In this document: in pieces, positions 4,619 through 64,000 of the stretch | Layout of the letters: each line of letters starts with the position of its first letter | How positions within the stretch are numbered: position 1 is the first letter of the stretch | Assembly: GCA_015501605.1 (NCBI GenBank) | Contig: JADNRZ010000004.1 | Coordinates: 2,232,001 to 2,296,000, forward strand | Length of the DNA: 64,000 bases | Origin: Panaeolus papilionaceus | Taxonomy: Eukaryota > Basidiomycota > Agaricomycetes > Agaricales | Direction of reading: 5' to 3' | The notes under the pieces: generated by a model | Database searches by the model: none | Seen by the model: the letters and a program-made list of their open reading frames with translations, nothing else | What the model was told of the DNA's origin: nothing | Made by a program: the position numbers and the translations under genes

Positions 4619-5365
4619 GTGGGACGCTTCTTTATTTCAGTCTATCACCCACCTCAACTTTTCTTGAATGGCTCCTCGAACTCGTTCCCATGTCATGAAA
4701 GAGGATTTGTAACCTTGCGCGGCAACAATACCACAGGTTTCGCTGCACTTCCCAACAAAATATATCTCCAAATCCTATTCTTCATACCAAGCGTTCCAGT
4801 CTCATGTAGTTCAACAGCGTCGTTTATTGTACGATGCAGGTCTCGATTCGACATCGAATAACCAACCCCTATCGCCTTTGGGTAGACACGCGACCATCCA
4901 TGCTCTGTCCCAAACCTGTTGCGCGTCGCGCGCTGTATTCATATGGTACTTGTGGCAAACAATGGAGGTATTCCATGGTATGAAGCTTGTTGATGGAGGT
5001 CGATTGCCCGCAGAGATAATAGAATTAAGAAGACGGGGAGCCCTAGAAAATGGGATGAATGCACAACTCAAACATCGCAAATACGCCTCTGAGCTCTTGC
5101 GTTAGCTCGAGGTGGTCACCATTCGTGAGTCATCGTATGCAAAATGTGTAAATTAAGTTGCCCTATTACTCCATACGTTTATAATTTGATGAAATTTTTA
5201 AGCTACCTCAACATTATCCTCCTACCCACATCCATCAAGTCTGTCTACACGGAACTTCTACACTGCATCACCCAAATGCCCAATCTTCATACCGTTGGGA
5301 TAATCTGCCACGAGACATCTCTGGGCTTATTCGACACTCCTGAGTCAAGCCTACGAAAGAAGTAA
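4619..5365 (+). pseudogene. F-box protein gene, inactivated by nonsense mutations
   Basis: F-box proteins recruit substrates to SCF ubiquitin ligases. The first segment has an F-box core (LPNKIYLQILFFIPSVPV). Removing a 46-nt GT-AG interval (4840-4885) joins it in phase to RHATIHALSQTCCASRAVF, the usual continuation in mushroom F-box proteins. The frame then reaches TAG at 5103-5105 where a Gln codon is expected (ELLR-stop-LEVVTIRE), and soon a TAA. A downstream piece (about 5230-5350, SVYTELLHCITQMPNLHTVG) matches the leucine-rich segment of the same family, so homology continues past the stops. Decay in place is more likely than a short functional protein. It shares a divergent intergenic region with the HSF gene. 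Confidence 0.7.
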
Positions 5366-5373
5366 CTCCTAAC

Positions 5374-7421
5374 TCAGTCCACTATTTTCGCCACTCTAAG
5401 CTTCTTCATCGTCTGTCGCGCTGCTCTCTCGTGATTGTTCAATCCCCCATTAAATGCCCATTCAACTTCACCTTCCTTGAGTGTCCCAACAGCGTATCGT
5501 CTCAATAAAGCTACACCACCGGGCTGTAACAATAAAATCATCAGTACGATAATACCCATCACTTTAAATAAATGAAAATCGCCTACATGTTCTCCAAGGT
5601 ATGATGTCGCATCAACAGCGTACCCATCAATCAACGACACATCTTCCTGCCTTTTCAATGGTCCATAATCGGACCTTTTGCATACTCCAAGCTTCGCCTT
5701 CCCAAGAGTCGTCTTCTGGATCGAGCTTTCCTGCCTCTTTCCTTTTCATATACTCCAAAGCATCGACCATATCTTCAGGACGCGCTCTCCGAAGACCCGT
5801 AACGAGCCCAAGCTCATGAAGGACGAGAATAACCCATTTAGTAGGGTCATAGTCAGTTAAGGATATTCCAGAGCGATAATCGTGTGGGAATGCATGCTAT
5901 GCCGAACTCGTCAGATGCCTTAAGCTTTAAAGTAATCATGACAGATGACGAACATGTTGGAATGCACTGATTGTTAGAATTTGTCAAGGCGATTTGTAGG
6001 CTGCACGTACGAAATTATGATTCCCTTCCCCTGTTGTCAACAATGCCACAAACTAAGGCAAACTCAGGTTAATTCGTGTGAGGCGGATCCTCTCAAACGC
6101 ACCAAGTTTCTCCTAGACGAATTTTCATCCGGATACGGCTGTAGACCTTGCCAATGCGCTAACCTGCATTTGACATCCGAAATGAATAAGAGTCCACTTA
6201 CGTCGTGCGGTGTAAATTGGGCACTTACGAGTTGACGAGGAATGTTCCATGTAAGACTAAAAAATATTAAAATAATCACATCCGGAATCGAGAAAGAGAT
6301 GGATAAGGAACGTACCGCAAACCTTCGCGAACAAACCGCCCCAAATGAAGGCGCATATCGCATCACCCCAAAGCGAGCCGACGAGTGTCGGAAATACCAA
6401 ACCAAACGAGATTGCAACATGTACTGGAAATCAATATGCATGAGGTCAAAGACCAAATGGGTACCACGATAAAGTCAGGCTTACCATAATACTTGTCTTG
6501 CCATTTTACAACTGAGCCCAGTGAACGGTATACATCCGATAGGAGTGAACAATAATATGAGTTGAGAGGTGACAAGAGAAGAATGTACGGACCTGGATCC
6601 CTTTCCAAATCTTCTTTCTCGATCAATTCCATGCGTTCGAAAACCGGGTCGATGAATAGCCAGCCTATATGGGCATGAAACATGCCTCGTGTTGCGGCAT
6701 AACTTTAAATTTGAAGAGACGTCAGTGCAGTTGAAATGACTGGGAAGGGAGTGATAAACGTACGGGTCGTGGACGGGATCGTCTGTGTACCTCTAAAGAA
6801 GGGGTAGTCATTTAGCCGTTGAGCCTGGCGTGTTGCAAAACTGAAACAGGAGGCTTACATGATGTAAACGATGTCGTAGGGCCCTGTTTGCAGTGAATCA
6901 GATTCTGTACTTGTTACAGTAAATTAACACGAGTCACCACCACTAGAGATGAAGCAGGGGAGATTGATATTTTTATTTTATTTTTGTAAGTAAAATATCA
7001 CGCACCAGTATTGACCTTTGGAACGTCGCGGCCCCCAACACGGCCAACACGACTCGAACGCCCAAGGAAGCGCGAAATGACCTGTGGGCGAATAGGCGAT
7101 GGTACCCTATCGTCACTCTATTATCCATAGTCCAATTCAACGAGTCTCAGCACGGGCCACCACGTAAACATAAAAGAATGAACGAATATCCATACCCGAG
7201 ACCACAGACCTGCCACTGAAACAGCCAGAGGGCGATAGTCGCCTTTTTGATTGACCATGGGGGAAAGAAGTATAACCCAACGAAGGCACCAATGTGAATT
7301 AGTATGAGCGTAATGAGGTTGTACCAGGCTATTGGGGGGTGTCCTTCGGCTCGTGCTTCTCTAGGCCTCTAGTACTCTTCTGGTCTTCTTCAATAGTTGA
7401 GGTGGTTATCAAGGAAGACAT
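5374..7421 (-). pseudogene. delta-9 acyl-CoA desaturase, decayed tandem copy
   Basis: Paralogue of the intact desaturase at 8115-10145, with the same exon order. Preserved pieces include histidine box 1 (YHRLFAHRS), box 2 (HRLHHRYTDD), SLAHWQG, GEGNHNF and the C-terminal cytochrome b5-like segment (DGYAVDATSYLGEH). Three lesions are visible. First, the exon 1 C-run (G-run at 7334-7339 on plus) is one base short of the number needed to keep the transmembrane segment in frame. Second, the 3' splice site before the 3-nt His exon is AA instead of AG (5957-5958). Third, a 2-nt deletion near 5633-5636 puts the b5 segment out of frame. A 5-nt microexon TGGTG is still present at 6938-6942. Sequencing error could explain one lesion but hardly all three. 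Confidence 0.85.
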
Positions 7422-40560: not shown

Positions 40561-42026
40561 GATAAGGTATTAGAACACCAACATTGATCGATGGCCAGTA
40601 AACGATGCTCACCATTGCTGTTGAAGAATATAACACGGAAGCTGTTAAGACTTTGGGTGTTAGTTTTCTTATCACTTTACCGTCCTCATTTTATACCCTT
40701 TTGCGTGCCGGGAATATATCAAAGTTCATATACGATGACATTACGACCGTCGTTCGAGTGTGGTGTGGAAGGGTCATTGGTGACATCCTGCTTTAAAACT
40801 TTATACAAGCATTTAATATCGCAAATATTCAGAACGTCGGCTCAAGGATATAGTATCTAGACTCATTCGATGTGTCCACAATATGAGCTACCATGGGATG
40901 AAGTGCACCTCGAGTGCAAGTTTCAGATAAGCCTGAATGTGATGTTGCTTTGGCAGGGCCACTTCGGGTCTCACATCACCATGTCTTGGAGCACAAATAC
41001 CATATCATTCAAACTATGAGGCATGAGGAAGGGGGTTTATTATCTCGACTCCTCTTTATATTTGACATCATGAATTTTTACGTGCTCAAGAAATTCAAGT
41101 CATATTTCAAGCTTATTATTACACACGTCATGACATCTCTCGGACTTGCACCTCGAATGAGCTGATATGATTATTCGAATATTTTATAATCTAGTGCGTT
41201 ACTCACAAAATACCAGTATGTATATAGTTATTGCGCAGATCCACATTCAGCGGTTCGACGTCTGACCTCCTCGCTGGTACAATAACTTCGCAATTCCGAT
41301 TGCCAGGAAAGTATCTCGCGCTAGGGTATTCTCATTACAGCCTGTAGTACTATCTCAAAGCACGCATCCTTTCAATGGATCCGTCATTCTTGTCATCAGG
41401 CCTGCCAGCAGCAGTTTTTCACGGCATGGGACCAATTACTGAGACACAGTTTCCGGAGCCAAACAGGGCAAGCAAGCGCAATACCCTGTCATCCAAGCCC
41501 TGGTTTCCAACATTCTCAGGCATTCTCAGGCTCGTATTCCAGAGGGACATATAAGGATCATTCCCCAGTGAGCTTATCTATGTCTATGTTACACTATTTA
41601 CTTGTCATTAAGTGCCAGCAGAGGTGTCGGATTGTGACTATTGGTTGAAAAAGCATCGAGACCACTTCAAATCTTTTTGTTCTGGCCGAAGGTTCACGAG
41701 GTGTCTACTCTTCTTTAGTCGACGTTTCCAGCAACGGGCTCATCTATGCTACTAATGGTGTTGAACGTACGCGGGCCATGTCACGGTAAGCTGCACAAAA
41801 GGAATTCTAATGCTTGGATCTGCTGTGGATATCATTAACCTGGAAACCATAAAATGCCGTGTCGTTCTCGTCTGTGGTCGAACCTTCTTGAGGTATTGAA
41901 TGATGTTGATGCCATCGAATGCTTTGATCTTAGTTTCGAGACTACCTTCTCGCATTACCGTAAAGAAATCTACTATCACGCACTGGAAATGTGGACGACA
42001 TTTCGACCAATAGTACAAAACCCAAA
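40561..42026. other. gene-poor interval
   Basis: No gene that I can support. A stretch near 41375-41480 reads LPAAVFHGMG, which faintly recalls the start of lipase/thioesterase folds. No catalytic Ser motif follows in any frame. Confidence 0.4.
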
Positions 42027-57402: not shown

Positions 57403-58242
57403 GACTTGTGAGGCACCGTCGACTGGGAAGGGGAAATTTTCCTTTGGGTAATCTCACCTCTCTGCACCTTTTTATGCCCCGGAGTGAACCCATAGAATGA
57501 GGTTATTATTAGTTGAATTTATTTTAGGATTAGAACATGCTTACCGATGCTTGACATGGGCATAGCTTAATCCCGTTTATCGCTAATTTCATGATTCAGG
57601 CCGACCTCCTGAGAGCCCATCATACGCTGTGTATTCCTTTGGATGGTCGCTGAGGAAGAATACCGGGATACACAGGAAATGCGTGCTACGCGACATCCCA
57701 ACACAGAACCTACTGAGCGCCGGTTTATATTCCGTGGAGTTTCCTGTTCAAATACCGATAAAAGAGATAAGCAGCCATTCATAAGCTTGTCATAGGCCAA
57801 CGGTGTGACCCATGCATACAATTGACAAACTGCGCACACCTATATGAAAACAATTCATTACGACCTCAGGACAGCTTTACTTGGTAGGGTGTCCTTTATA
57901 CACCATGATAAGGGGTAATATCAACGGAGGATATTCTAGACCAGGCAACGTTAAATAAAGAACGCCATTGAAAGGAGCACATGGACCTGGGAACAGGGGA
58001 ACAGTGACAGTCGAAGGTCATCCTGGATTCCAAACATTGAAACAATTAACCGTTTGTTGTTCTTTGTTGAGTTTTGAAGCTGAAGGCTTGTCTCTCAGTC
58101 GGCGACTGGCGTCACTGTGATTATTCAACAAATGAATATCAATCTTGTGCAAGTACTCTGTAGCATTTACTAATAAGCGACTATCATTTGACAACTTAAT
58201 CCAGTACAACGTTCGAGGTAGTCTGTTTTCGTTCGGGGGGAC
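57403..58242. other. intergenic between transporter and helicase region
   Basis: No supportable gene. The right end lies just outside the 17-bp inverted repeat. Immediately outside that repeat, TTTCGT and ACGAAA bracket a G-run (about 58227-58246) and could form a small hairpin. Confidence 0.45.
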
Positions 58243-58259
58243 GAAACCGTAGCTGAAAA
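58243..58259 (+). repeat. left copy of an exact 17-bp inverted repeat
   Basis: Reads GAAACCGTAGCTGAAAA on plus, 191 bp upstream of the helicase start codon. Its exact reverse complement is at 63898-63914. No obvious target duplication is visible beside it. Confidence 0.85.
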
Positions 58260-58449
58260 TCAACATCACGTGAAGTCCTTGGCGCAACCAAACAATCACG
58301 ACGCGAGCATTAATTGATGTCCTGTTAGGGGGGATAGCCCCTGATTCCTCGCGTATTGTCAATCACACAATTATTGCAATAAAAGCACGCAAGTAGAAAA
58401 AAAAAAGTATATTAGTGTAGGGTAAAGCACAAATAATGAGCGTCGTGCA

Positions 58450-60673
58450 ATGACTGTGTCTACCAATAGCCTGAGGTGGAATACACCAGCTGGTCATCTT
58501 CGAATCAAGCACATCCTGAAGGGTTGTGTGCCATCGATTGAGCCGCACGACTACCAGACCCATGGTATTTCTGTCTCGCTTGATGGTGATGACCTTCTGG
58601 TGACCATGGCCACTGGCTCGGGAAAAACGGGCTACTTTTGCTTTCTAATGAAAGTCATTATTGCTCTAACACTAGACCCCTCACTTGCACTTCCCGGAAC
58701 AAATCCATTTCCAGAAAACCCAGCAATGCTGGTCGTGCTCCCAACAAAGGCACTTCAAGGGGATATGGTATGTGTACCAGTTGTTTTATACAAGTATTTA
58801 ACCTGACACGCAATGTGCTGACCAGTGTAAAAGCATGATTGAGTGGGGCATTGAAGCTGTTGTAATCAACGGAGATACAGTGCAAGCTGCATCTGCCTGT
58901 TGTCGGAACCTCTGGATCGAGTGCCGTGACCGCTATTCCATCATTCTGATCTCACCTGAAGAGCTACTGAATAATGACTTCCGAGCGCTCCTCAGCAATC
59001 AAGACTTCAAAACTCGAGTATGCCGTTTTGGTGTGGATGAAGTACATCTGATCCATGTATGGGGAAAGACCTTTCGTGAATCCTTCCTGCAATTGGGTCA
59101 TATCCGTGCACGCCTCCCATCCATTAACGGTCGAAATATGCCACTTGTTGCTGCATCAGCCACACTTCGCCCTGGACCGCCTATGGACACTATTCGATCT
59201 GTTTTGGGACTTGAAGAGGGCCGATATTTCCTTCTACGTCGTTCAAATCAAAGGCCAGATATTCAGATTTTGTTTCGAGTTATGAAATCATCAACTCAAG
59301 GCTATTCCTTTCCCGAGCTCGACTGGCTTCTTGATGAAGAACAATCTAGTGTTGTGTTCTGCAAACACATTTCCCTCGGTTTTCGTGTTGCTGTCTATTT
59401 GTGGCGCCTAGCGGTTTCGAAAGGGATGTCAGCGATTGCGGAACGGATAAGACTATTTAATTCTCTGAACTCAGCTGCGTTCAACCTTTCAACTCTCAAT
59501 TTTATCGATGATGCAAGCACTGATGCATCAATTGTCTGTGCAACAGATGTATTGAGTGTTGGCTGGGACAGTCAGCGAACTCGAAACGCAGTTATCGTGG
59601 GAGAGCCAGAGGACATCGACGACTTTGTTCAGAAGGCAGGCCGTGTAGGTCGCAATCGCCTCCTTGTCCAATCACCGCGTGTATTCTTGTATCATTCGAA
59701 AAAGGCAATTGAAACAGCAGAGAAGATTGTGGCAGGTTCTCAAGATCTCGACTCGCTCGACTCAACACTCACACTGATGAAACCAAAAAAAGCCGAGGAC
59801 GACACAACACAGATGGATGTTAGCATGGCTCGCCTCTTTCTTGCACCTTGCAAGCCCAAGAACATCAACGAACAGTACAACAACCCCACAACAGATCCTA
59901 TCTGCACGTGCAAGCGCTGCACTGACAATGCTCAGGTCGTGTCCGAGACAGAGCTCAAGAATACAGGTTGTAACTGTAGTGGGGGTCCAGCTCGAGCGGA
60001 CTTAGGTTGCCAGCCTGAGATGGAAGTGTCGAAGGGTCCAGCTTCCACTGCTCAAGCTAATGGAAAGACTCGCGCAAAGCGCGGAGAGGGTATTTCCAAA
60101 AATATGCGTGCTCATGGAGAGAGTGTTTTCGAGCAGGTACGCCATGAGATCTACCGCCAATCCAATCGAAGGTCTTTTGTTTCGCCATACATATTCCTCC
60201 CTCAACAAACTATAACGACACTTATCAACACTATCTACTCAATCCACTCCATTTCCGACATCAAACAGGCAGTCGGCGGAATTCAGCTCCTTAACAATCA
60301 TCATACATACCTTCTGCAAACCTGTCAAAATTTGCGAAAGGATTTCGAGGCCATACGCGAAACAGAGAAGGCAGAGAAGGCAAAAAAAAGGGCCGAGAAG
60401 AACTCAGACAAGTTGTCCGAACCTGCAAGCAATGATGAAATTCTTATTGGACAGCCTTCCAGTTCAAACGTTGGGACCAAGTTGAGAATTAATTTTCGGT
60501 GAGTGATGGAACTGATTATCTACGATTTTATAGAGCTAAAGAATTAAAATATTATATATAGGTTAAAGACAATAACAACAGTGGATAGTGGTGGGGATAC
60601 AGAAGAGTCTGGAGATGATGATGATGATTTAGGAGATGCCGAGGACGAGTTGACCACCAACAATCTCAGTTAA
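58450..60673 (+). CDS. RecQ-like DNA helicase (TLH-like, mushroom lineage)
   Basis: SF2 3'-5' DNA helicase. Three exons chain in frame to 700 aa: 58450-58767, 58826-60498 and 60562-60673. Motif I is MATGSGKTGYF, Ia is VVLPTKALQGDM, and motif II is VDEVHLIHVWGKTFRESF, the RecQ-type box with DEVH in place of DEAH and W-G kept. Motif III is SATLRPG, and motif VI is FVQKAGRVGRNR. After the helicase core comes a Cys cluster (CTCKRC...CNCSGG, about residues 460-490) that may bind zinc. Then come a basic segment and an acidic Asp-rich tail. Similar genes are found at subtelomeres and next to mobile genes in basidiomycetes. Its last exon overlaps the end of the opposing DUF6589 gene. Confidence 0.88.
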
Positions 60674-63600
60674 GCCCAATGATTCGGCTTGTGGTACATA
60701 TTCCTTATCAAGGGGACTGAGATTGTTCTCAGAATATGAAGATGATGCGACATGAAGGAGGTTGCGAGTGGTTGTTGTATCATGTACCCACTTTTCTAGC
60801 TTTTCTTCATGAAGTTTCTTGACACCAGCATCGAAATGATCTCGCAATATGTCCCTCTCGTGACCGTAAACCCGACCTGGGCGGCGCCTATGAAGCTCGT
60901 GGTGCTGATAAAGGTCAAGTAAAATCTTGAGCTCAGGGTCCTGGTGTGGGACTGTGTGCCGACCAGAGCGTGCACCCAAGGATATCCCTGACCGCATGTC
61001 TGCCTTGATCCTAGCTAAAAAGTGAAGATTGGGTGAGACAACATTTCGAATGAAGTCGGACCCGTAATCCACCCCTTTATGCTCAACAACAGCTTCGAGT
61101 AGTCGATTGAAATATTCTTGAATAAAGTCGGCCGCCGCAAATGAACCTTCACGGCCAGTCAGATTGACGAGTGTGCTTTTGAGAATTGCTTCCTTCATTT
61201 CCGATGTCGATTCGAGCTCCAGCCGGGCAATTGTTTCGAGAAGGTATGTGGCATATTTTGAATGCGTAGAGCCTGCGAAGGTGAAGAGCATGACCTGCAA
61301 GGTGGCGAAATACATATTGTTGTAGAACATTTAATGGAAGCACCAAGAAAAACTCACCTTAAGAACCTCATAGACTCGCCCTGGATCTCCCTCAGCCACC
61401 GCATATGCAAATTCATATGATAGCAGCGAGTCTCGTAGGAAAAAAATAGCATTGGAAAGTACACGGTCGCCGTTTTGATGGCGTGGCGATGGAGGTGATT
61501 TGGGTGAATCTTCTGCTTGCTTTTCAGTGACTGAAGAGGTGAAACCCCTCCATGGACTACCAAGTGGCACCACCTTCGACCACTCCGAAGGCGACATTGT
61601 GTCTCCTAATGCGTCATAAGCCGCAGGTGTTGTCGAAAAATGCTGATGTAAGCGTCGAGCTATGGTCTCCAATTCTTGAATGTCGGGCATCTCCTTCGAA
61701 TCCAACGACTCGAAATGCTTGAAAATGTCTTTACATTTGAAGTAATTTCTATGCAATGTGTTAATTTGATAAATATATTAAGAATTAAAATGAATACCTC
61801 CAAATATCAAGCATTCGAGCATCTGTGATGAGCTTCAGCAGCTCCGAGCCAAGGTAAAAATCCACTTTCTTGTCAGTCGACAATTTGGATGCGCGCCCTA
61901 TCTTGGAAGCACTGTGCCCTAGCGATGATGGGTCTGGATTATGGACTGAATCGAGAAAAAGGTGGAATATCCGGGTCATGTCAGTCCATTCCGTATGCCA
62001 CATAGACAGCACAGGCTCGAGCAACGATAGGTTAGCCACAGGGTTGGGGTGGAATTGGAGGTATCGTTGTACCTCCTGAACTCGTTGAAATGTCAGACCA
62101 TCACCGCCTGTGAGAATGATCTTTTCATGTGAAGCAGTGTCTCCATCCTCCTTGACTCCCATTTGCTGCAAAAAATCGAGTAGCGCATCCTTTAATTCTG
62201 TGGTATTCGTTTCGCTTTTGCTACTTGATGAAAGGCAGTGTACTGGTGTTGGTTTTGCTGGTAATCGAAGTCGAGCGGCTCGCGTTGCAAATAGAGTGGA
62301 CACATGACCTTTCCAATGCGACAACTGTGGAATCGCGTTAATAAGGACGCGGAGCCAGTGAAAAGTGATGACCTCATCGAGGTGGTTGTGATTAATCAAA
62401 CTGAGAAGAGTGTCGGTCGAGAGATGCTGTCGTTTATTAAGAGATACTAGCTCCTGCCTCCGCTTAACTGAAAGTGCGCTAGCACTGACTCCTTCGAGCT
62501 CGAAATAAATGGCTGCAAGGCCGATGTTGAGTTTGTTGGCGCTCCCAATTCGAAGATCTCGAATCCGATGAAAGTTTTGAACGTTGTCGAATTGCATGTT
62601 ACCACATTTAGTAGGGTCAAGGACACGATCAACTAGGATCGATTTCGAGTGCACCCCCAGCACCTTGAGCGCTCGGAGGATGGTACTGAATGCTGGTACC
62701 ATCCCAATGCGGCAGAGATAGGCCATAAAGTCCGCAGACACTGAGTAACCGAACCCCAGGATACCAAGCGATAAAGGGAGGAGTCGGGCTTCACGATTTC
62801 GAGTGAAGAGAAGAGACGACAGAGAATGCGAAATAACCTGATAAATTACCTCACAGTAAGTAATTGTTTAAGTTAGGAAATTGTTGATATGACGCACGAG
62901 GTGTGGTGGCCGTTGAACGGCACCCTCCTCAGGTTCAACTTCACTGAGGGCTGTATTTTTGGAATGAACACCCTCGAGAGACTCCAGACCTTCGGATGAA
63001 TCACCAGCTATCGCATTTAATATTATCCAGGAAGCAGGGCACTTAGACCTAAGTATACTCTCGACCCGGGCAAGTGTATTGTCCCCTACATTGCTTGTCT
63101 CCACCCTATAGCGGCTATTCTTCATCAACGACGCATGGAGTCCATGTTGAGCCAACACGACTGTCCTCGCTTCCTTAACCACCTCATCCCTGACTACCTG
63201 TACAGCAAACGAGCGGAGCAAAACGCGGACAGATGTGTTGAGGAGCGCATAGTCTTCGAGATGGAATCGAGTGGTATCTGTGCTTGAATAACCAAGTGGG
63301 TGAGTGTACACGAGCTTGATGATCGTGCCAAATCGCACTGTTGTCTGTCCTTTGAGAAGCCTGGACACAGCCATCGAATTTCGTATACTTCTTCCTGGTG
63401 TTCTGCTGCCGTCGTGGTGGAAGATGTGATATAATAAGTCTCCTAGACTCCAATCAAGCTGCTGAAGCTGGTTGTAAATCATCTCCAATTTTTCAATGGG
63501 AGACAATTTCGTGGGTGGTGTGGGTGTCGGGTTATTACTGGGTGGTTTGGAGTCCACATTTACGTGTCTCGTAGATATGTTGAGGCGACCTCGTTTTGGG

Positions 63601-63749
63601 GAGCGGACAGGAGCGATGTTTTCCTTGATGACATGGGCCTTGCGCTTTATGGTCGATGGTGATCGTGTATTGCTTAACGAGAAATTTAAGACAGAAATGG
63701 ATGGATTAGGCGAGGGCAGTGGACTAGCAGTCTGCCATTGGGAGTACAT
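60629..63749 (-). CDS. DUF6589-family protein, convergent with the helicase
   Basis: Large protein of unknown function, widespread and multicopy in Agaricomycetes. Four exons chain in frame to 982 aa: 62898-63749, 61798-62837, 61358-61748 and 60629-61294. The ATG at 63749 (MYSQWQ) is used. An in-frame GTG lies nine bases upstream. Typical blocks from memory of the family are ILTGGDGLTFQRVQEVQRYL, VLSMWHTEWTDMTRIFHLF, SSLGHSASKIGRASKLSTDKK, FAYAVAEGDPGRVYEVLKVM, FTFAGSTHSKYATYLLE and the late FIQEYFNRLLEAVVEHKG. The N-terminal 110 residues are Ser/Pro-rich and basic (KRKAHVI, SPKRGRL). The last 15 codons overlap, antisense, the last codons of the helicase. DDE-like catalysis has been suggested by some for related families, but I cannot show it here. 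Confidence 0.85.
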
Positions 63750-64000
63750 TGAGTGCACTACATAGAATAAAAGACGCGACGCGTCTGTCGCGATAAATTG
63801 CTGGTGCCAAGAAGAGATGTGGTCATATGCTCTGGGCGAACAAACACATCCCGATTAGGACGAAAAAACGTCCTAATAGGGAAGGTGACCATGCGGTTTT
63901 TCAGCTACGGTTTCAAGGGCGTGCAAGCAATCAGACCACCCTCAATTCATTTGTCGTGGTCTGACTACGGGAGACTACGTTCGAGGGATACGTGACTAAA
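63750..64000. other. upstream region of the DUF6589 gene, with hairpin
   Basis: Contains a perfect hairpin at 63854-63877 (ATTAGGACG, A6 loop, CGTCCTAAT), a GCGAC/GTCGC mini-palindrome near 63778, and the right 17-bp inverted repeat. No gene. Confidence 0.6.
63898..63914 (-). repeat. right copy of the exact 17-bp inverted repeat
   Basis: Reverse complement of 58243-58259, 149 bp upstream of the DUF6589 start codon. Both copies point toward the start of the gene beside them, so they could be transposon ends or a shared promoter element. Confidence 0.85.

Follow-up and report, generated by a model that had tools for sequence, protein, structure and literature searches.

A probable AcademH-type DNA transposon carrying a RecQ-like helicase and a predicted DUF6589 transposase in Panaeolus papilionaceus

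In the genome of the basidiomycete Panaeolus papilionaceus (GenBank assembly GCA_015501605.1), two intact convergent genes, one encoding a RecQ-like helicase and the other a protein with a DUF6589 domain, lie between exact copies of a 17-bp inverted repeat, within the 64,000-nucleotide stretch analyzed here (the window; contig JADNRZ010000004.1, positions 2,232,001 to 2,296,000). A first-pass annotation of the window proposed an undescribed mobile element with DUF6589 as a possible transposase or, alternatively, a promoter motif shared by two genes. Is this locus a mobile element, and if so, where does it end and to which family does it belong? Our analysis indicates that it is very probably a DNA transposon of the AcademH type, recently active and presumably autonomous, in which the DUF6589 protein would serve as the transposase and the helicase as its partner.

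Both copies of the repeat, GAAACCGTAGCTGAAAA, were confirmed (Table 1), and the window holds only these two matches at up to three mismatches; shuffled windows gave 0.13 matches on average, and two or more in 1 of 100 shuffles. The exact motif has four occurrences genome-wide (50.85 Mb, 71 contigs), arranged in two pairs that face inward; a reversed-pattern control gave no match. The second pair is located at C8:207229 and C8:208499 (C34 denotes the contig holding the window, other C numbers further contigs of the same genome). Comparison of the two pairs revealed the true ends: both units start with TAGTCTGTTTTCG and end with GGGAGACTA, which in the window delimits an element of 5,759 bp inside two exact 9-bp copies of CGTTCGAGG. 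The termini lie 24 and 63 bp outward of the repeat that had been taken for the ends, and the target duplication, reported at first as not visible, was overlooked because the true ends lie outside this repeat. Breakpoints common to several copies, at or near the repeat, had been named as support for a mobile element; the two copies do share theirs, at these distances outside it. The C8 unit (1,358 bp) consists of element positions 1–708 joined to 5109–5759; the two parts overlap by one base, and one base is changed. The unit sits between two copies of GGTATTCCC that are identical at 9 of 9 positions. It is internally deleted and keeps both ends, as would be expected of a non-autonomous derivative; the genome contains one full copy of the element and this one with a deleted middle. 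Taken together, the common breakpoints, the 9-bp duplications and the deletion in C8 identify the window unit as a recently mobile DNA transposon with a deleted derivative, and its mobile nature is near certain.

Table 1. Positions of the transposon and its parts in the window.
Feature	Positions	Strand	Description
Left target site duplication	58210-58218	none	CGTTCGAGG
Whole transposon	58219-63977	+	Breakpoints common with the C8 copy, 9-bp duplications on both
Left end, 41 bp	58219-58259	+	TAGTCTG, 17 nt, 17-bp motif
Left 17-bp repeat copy	58243-58259	+	GAAACCGTAGCTGAAAA; putative transposase binding site
Helicase gene, RecQ-like	58450-60673	+	3 exons, 700 aa
DUF6589 gene	60629-63749	-	4 exons, 986 aa; predicted DDE transposase
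Right 17-bp repeat copy	63898-63914	-	
Inner right end	63898-63938	-	TGGTCTG, 17 nt, 17-bp motif; mirrors left end
Right tip, 41 bp	63937-63977	+	CA and the outer 39 bp; also present by itself at sites flanked by 9-bp repeats
Right target site duplication	63978-63986	none	CGTTCGAGG

The two ends are built asymmetrically. The left end and the outer right end share a 6-bp terminal repeat, TAGTCT. At the left terminus, 24 nt separate the motif from the end, and the same spacing is found on the right between the motif and an inner end, TGGTCTG, beyond which the right side extends another 39 bp to the outer end. An ungapped comparison of the left end with the inner right end gives 29 identities in 41 positions; the motif itself accounts for 17 of them, and among the remaining positions, 12 of 24 are alike (p 0.022 by shuffling). 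Folded as single strands, neither end stands out (z −1.86 and −0.62).

Both genes are open in exon models made in this analysis. The helicase gene comprises exons 58450–58767, 58826–60498 and 60562–60673; the DUF6589 gene, on the minus strand, comprises exons 63749–62898, 62849–61798, 61748–61358 and 61294–60629, and its NCBI model starts further in and is spliced slightly differently. The DUF6589 protein of the window is 98% identical, across 91% of length, to the P. papilionaceus hypothetical protein BJ165DRAFT_1339856. The convergent orientation of the genes and the distances first given for their starts hold, these being 190 bp (helicase) and 148 bp (DUF6589) from the adjacent, start-facing repeat copy. 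According to the exon models, the 3′ ends of the genes overlap by 45 bp (60629–60673). The helicase protein has the Pfam domains DEAD and Helicase_C, and among solved structures it is closest to the Bloom syndrome helicase and RecQ. An alignment of 32 helicases yields a consensus in which cysteines cluster downstream of the helicase core (C, CxCxxC, CxCSGC), in the C-terminal part and within the second exon; this is possibly a zinc-binding domain.

The second protein contains a full DUF6589 domain (E 1.8e-124, Pfam). Its predicted structure adopts a DDE-transposase-like fold, a comparison that the first-pass annotation had suggested, with Hermes, P element and RAG1 as the nearest solved structures, and conserved acidic residues accompany this fold, the candidates for the catalytic positions being D265, D427 and E718 (numbering of BJ165DRAFT_1339856). 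Tyrosine recombinases were absent among the structural matches listed, which by itself does not exclude them. At the sequence level, neither the single protein nor a DUF6589 profile matched any PDB sequence at E up to 10, and the Pfam and PDB searches gave no link to a known transposase. We consider it highly probable that DUF6589 is a DDE transposase.

The two gene families also occur together elsewhere. The genome contains two further convergent pairs, on C19 (helicase 87937–89837, DUF6589 90427–91886) and on C27 (helicase 78155–78508, DUF6589 80699–82001). The latter belongs to a distant relative at C27:77435–83631, whose terminal repeats are identical at 151 of 152 positions. The C19 element starts with TAGTCTGT, resembling the start of the window element; a search for the right end of the C19 element found none. 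Other DUF6589 loci showed no helicase match in the stretches examined, or a helicase in a different order. At C3:398557–402334 and C3:1778991–1779818, helicase and DUF6589 pieces are adjacent and point apart, unlike in the convergent pairs; the ends of the DUF6589 locus at C3:400984 were sought and not found. We identified 36 helicase homologues, 31 of them strong (E below 1e-60), and 17 of these 31 lie on contigs equal in length to that of one of 120 DUF6589 hits, equal length serving as a proxy for the same contig. By this proxy, one contig shared by a pair is just 4,659 bp long. In Psilocybe cf. subviscida, the paired genes carry the consecutive locus tags D9619_013640 and D9619_013641. With the duplications, common breakpoints and DDE-like fold, this pairing strongly supports the earlier proposal of a mobile element with its own helicase and DUF6589 as transposase.

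Partial relatives were observed as well. A diverged left end, TAGTCTG plus a version of the 17-bp motif, is present at C19:574712 and C9:1142947 in surroundings 99.97% identical over 3 kb; counted by eye, 22 rather than 24 nt precede the motif version. No right end was found for the relative with this left end (near C19:574690 and C9:1142925). C26:77040–77280 holds an isolated piece of the C27 terminal repeat, about 56 bp long and with no clear duplication, which is perhaps a remnant.

The right tip of the window element recurs far more often than the left. Its last 25 bp have 24 genome matches at up to three mismatches, its first 29 bp have two, and reversed controls gave none. The 24 matches comprise the window and C8 copies, a diverged longer right end at C3:1727047 (104 bp, 88%) and 21 solo right ends. 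Nine of these 21 solos are 30–57-bp inserts between 9-bp direct repeats. The repeats are exact around 41-bp inserts at C9:670313, C14:112928, C20:390435 and C1:3296601, a 57-bp insert at C3:736926 and a 30-bp insert at C7:546814, and have one mismatch around 40-bp inserts at C4:892813 and C2:1768473 and a 33-bp insert at C3:1548303. At 40,995 random places in the same loci, the rate was 0.0013 for exact repeats and 0.020 for repeats with at most one mismatch; therefore, about 0.03 and 0.4 such repeats, respectively, would be expected in 21 solos. Ten of the 21 stop at one common point, 2 nt inside the inner right end. Four solos end at the usual point and lack a 9-bp repeat (C45:529026, C45:783340, C56:1605245 and C34:1752232), and the other eight match over 23–28 bp only, with no repeat. 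Three of these eight, right-tip-like stretches of 25 bp at C1:3401223, C17:633580 and C17:657147, belong to three copies, 89–90% alike, of one larger repeat that spans 3 kb or more; they show no 9-bp repeat, count at best as one event and are perhaps an old scar copied along. The surplus of right tips (24) over left tips (2) is new and unexplained.

The inner right end mirrors the left end, and solos usually begin 2 nt within it; we therefore propose that the element is cut at the left end and at this inner right end. In the mechanism that we envisage, DUF6589 would bind the 17-bp motif near each end, cut the DNA and join the element to a staggered target, where gap filling would produce the 9-bp duplications observed. 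The RecQ-like helicase, travelling along, would unwind or remodel DNA during transposition or later repair. Excision would often run from the left end to the inner right end, with cuts staggered by 2 nt, leaving a scar of about 41 bp between the duplications, namely CA or TA plus the outer 39 bp. That the solo right ends are scars of such excision seems to us evenly balanced. The fuller scheme, in which the two right ends split their roles (the outer for insertion, the inner for excision) and the DUF6589 transposase works with the helicase, is more tentative, falling somewhat short of an even chance. Two observations weigh against the scars: no copy without the outer right part was found in the genome, and 12 of the 21 solos lack 9-bp repeats. 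The main rival, which we regard as rather unlikely, is an aborted, one-ended insertion, whereby the right end is joined first and the last 30–57 bp are copied or kept; the 9-bp duplication would then arise at insertion, with no earlier full element at the site. A constant right end with varying inner limits (30, 33, 40, 41 and 57 bp) and duplications present would fit this, as would the strong right-left asymmetry and the lack of shortened full copies. Against it, the stop shared by ten solos at the end mirroring the left terminus suggests a defined cut rather than random stops.

As to its family, the transposon most likely belongs to a kind already known, AcademH, either as a member or as a variant, so that the first description of it as undescribed probably does not hold. 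AcademH, a lineage of the Academ DNA transposons, was reportedly defined by Kojima in 2020. We consider membership likely because of the helicase, the duplication length, the terminal repeats and the host. Like AcademH as described in excerpts of PMC10045372 and PMC10799480, the element combines a helicase and a transposase, the helicase being of superfamily II (DEAD, Helicase_C; nearest Bloom/RecQ). Excerpts of PMC10045372 give target duplications of 9 or 10 bp for AcademH and 3 or 4 bp for AcademX, and relate these lengths to the encoded helicase or nuclease. Here, the duplications of the window element, the C8 copy and the C27 relative (an exact 9-bp duplication, CCAGTAACC) each agree at 9 of 9 positions, although the C27 relative sits in a short tandem repeat, which weakens its duplication as evidence. 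Terminal inverted repeats are present (TAGTCT; 29/41 between the left end and the inner right end; 152 bp in C27). In Basidiomycota and other fungi, AcademH elements have low copy numbers (excerpt of PMC10799480), consistent with one full and one deleted copy in this basidiomycete. The excerpted AcademH descriptions consulted mention neither an inner and an outer right end nor an excess of solo right ends, and in this the element differs. The AcademH paper is cited in excerpts of PMC8290104 and PMC12210899. The literature searched contained no mention of DUF6589, and PF20231 appeared just in an unrelated paper; the AcademH transposase may have been described without that name.

Other transposon groups share single features with the element. 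P elements duplicate 8 bp of target DNA, KolobokH elements duplicate TTAA, and Helitrons, likewise fungal transposons with a helicase, encode a Pif1-type enzyme and make no target duplication. We know of no hAT or P element that carries a helicase, nor of a RecQ-like helicase partner in the KDZ group (Kyakuja, Dileera, Zisupton), also DNA transposons of basidiomycete fungi. Excerpts of PMC12730594 assign duplications of 5–8 bp to hAT, 7 bp to Kyakuja and 8 bp to Zisupton and Dileera, and an HUH nuclease to Helitrons. The 9-bp duplications of the window element rule out Helitron, KolobokH (no TTAA), KDZ (not 7 or 8 bp) and AcademX (not 3 or 4 bp); Pfam matches, taken up to an E of 1, included no Helitron-type domain. 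hAT (Hermes) and P elements provide the nearest solved structures to the DUF6589 model, but lack a sequence match to DUF6589 and have duplications shorter than 9 bp. This structural proximity also bears on a further reading, in which the element represents a separate DDE superfamily that acquired its helicase independently. Two points favour it: the fold comes closest to those of Hermes and P element, and the Pfam and PDB sequence searches tie DUF6589 to no known transposase. However, a helicase, a 9-bp duplication and a low copy number, found together in a basidiomycete, match the AcademH descriptions as excerpted, and we judge a separate superfamily improbable.

Still less probable is a reading of the 41-bp pieces as mini-elements in their own right or as target sites, with the large element inserting specifically at their left edge. 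All three longer right ends (C34, C8 and C3:1727047) do adjoin a 40–41-bp piece, but a second end similar to the transposon ends is missing from the 41-bp piece, its edge shows no separate duplication (TA on the left and CA on the right of the large element, in both copies), and TAGTCT is common to the outer right end and the left end. Finally, that the 17-bp repeat is a mere promoter motif shared by two host genes can be practically dismissed: each copy faces a nearby start at a similar distance, and a transposase site may double as a transcription site, but genome-wide the motif occurs only in the two inward-facing pairs, the second bracketing a deleted copy that is flanked by a separate 9-bp duplication, and a shared promoter as the whole explanation is ruled out by the duplications and this deleted copy, which it leaves unexplained.

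The transposon at this locus suggests a function for DUF6589, a domain found in more than 100 fungal proteins that databases name hypothetical. DUF6589 and the RecQ-like helicase travel as one transposon, so genes of this sort should be masked as transposons rather than counted among host helicases. The near identity of the copies indicates recent activity, which makes the part of the helicase in DDE transposition testable. If the solo right ends are indeed scars, they would constitute a record of past insertions that copy counts miss.
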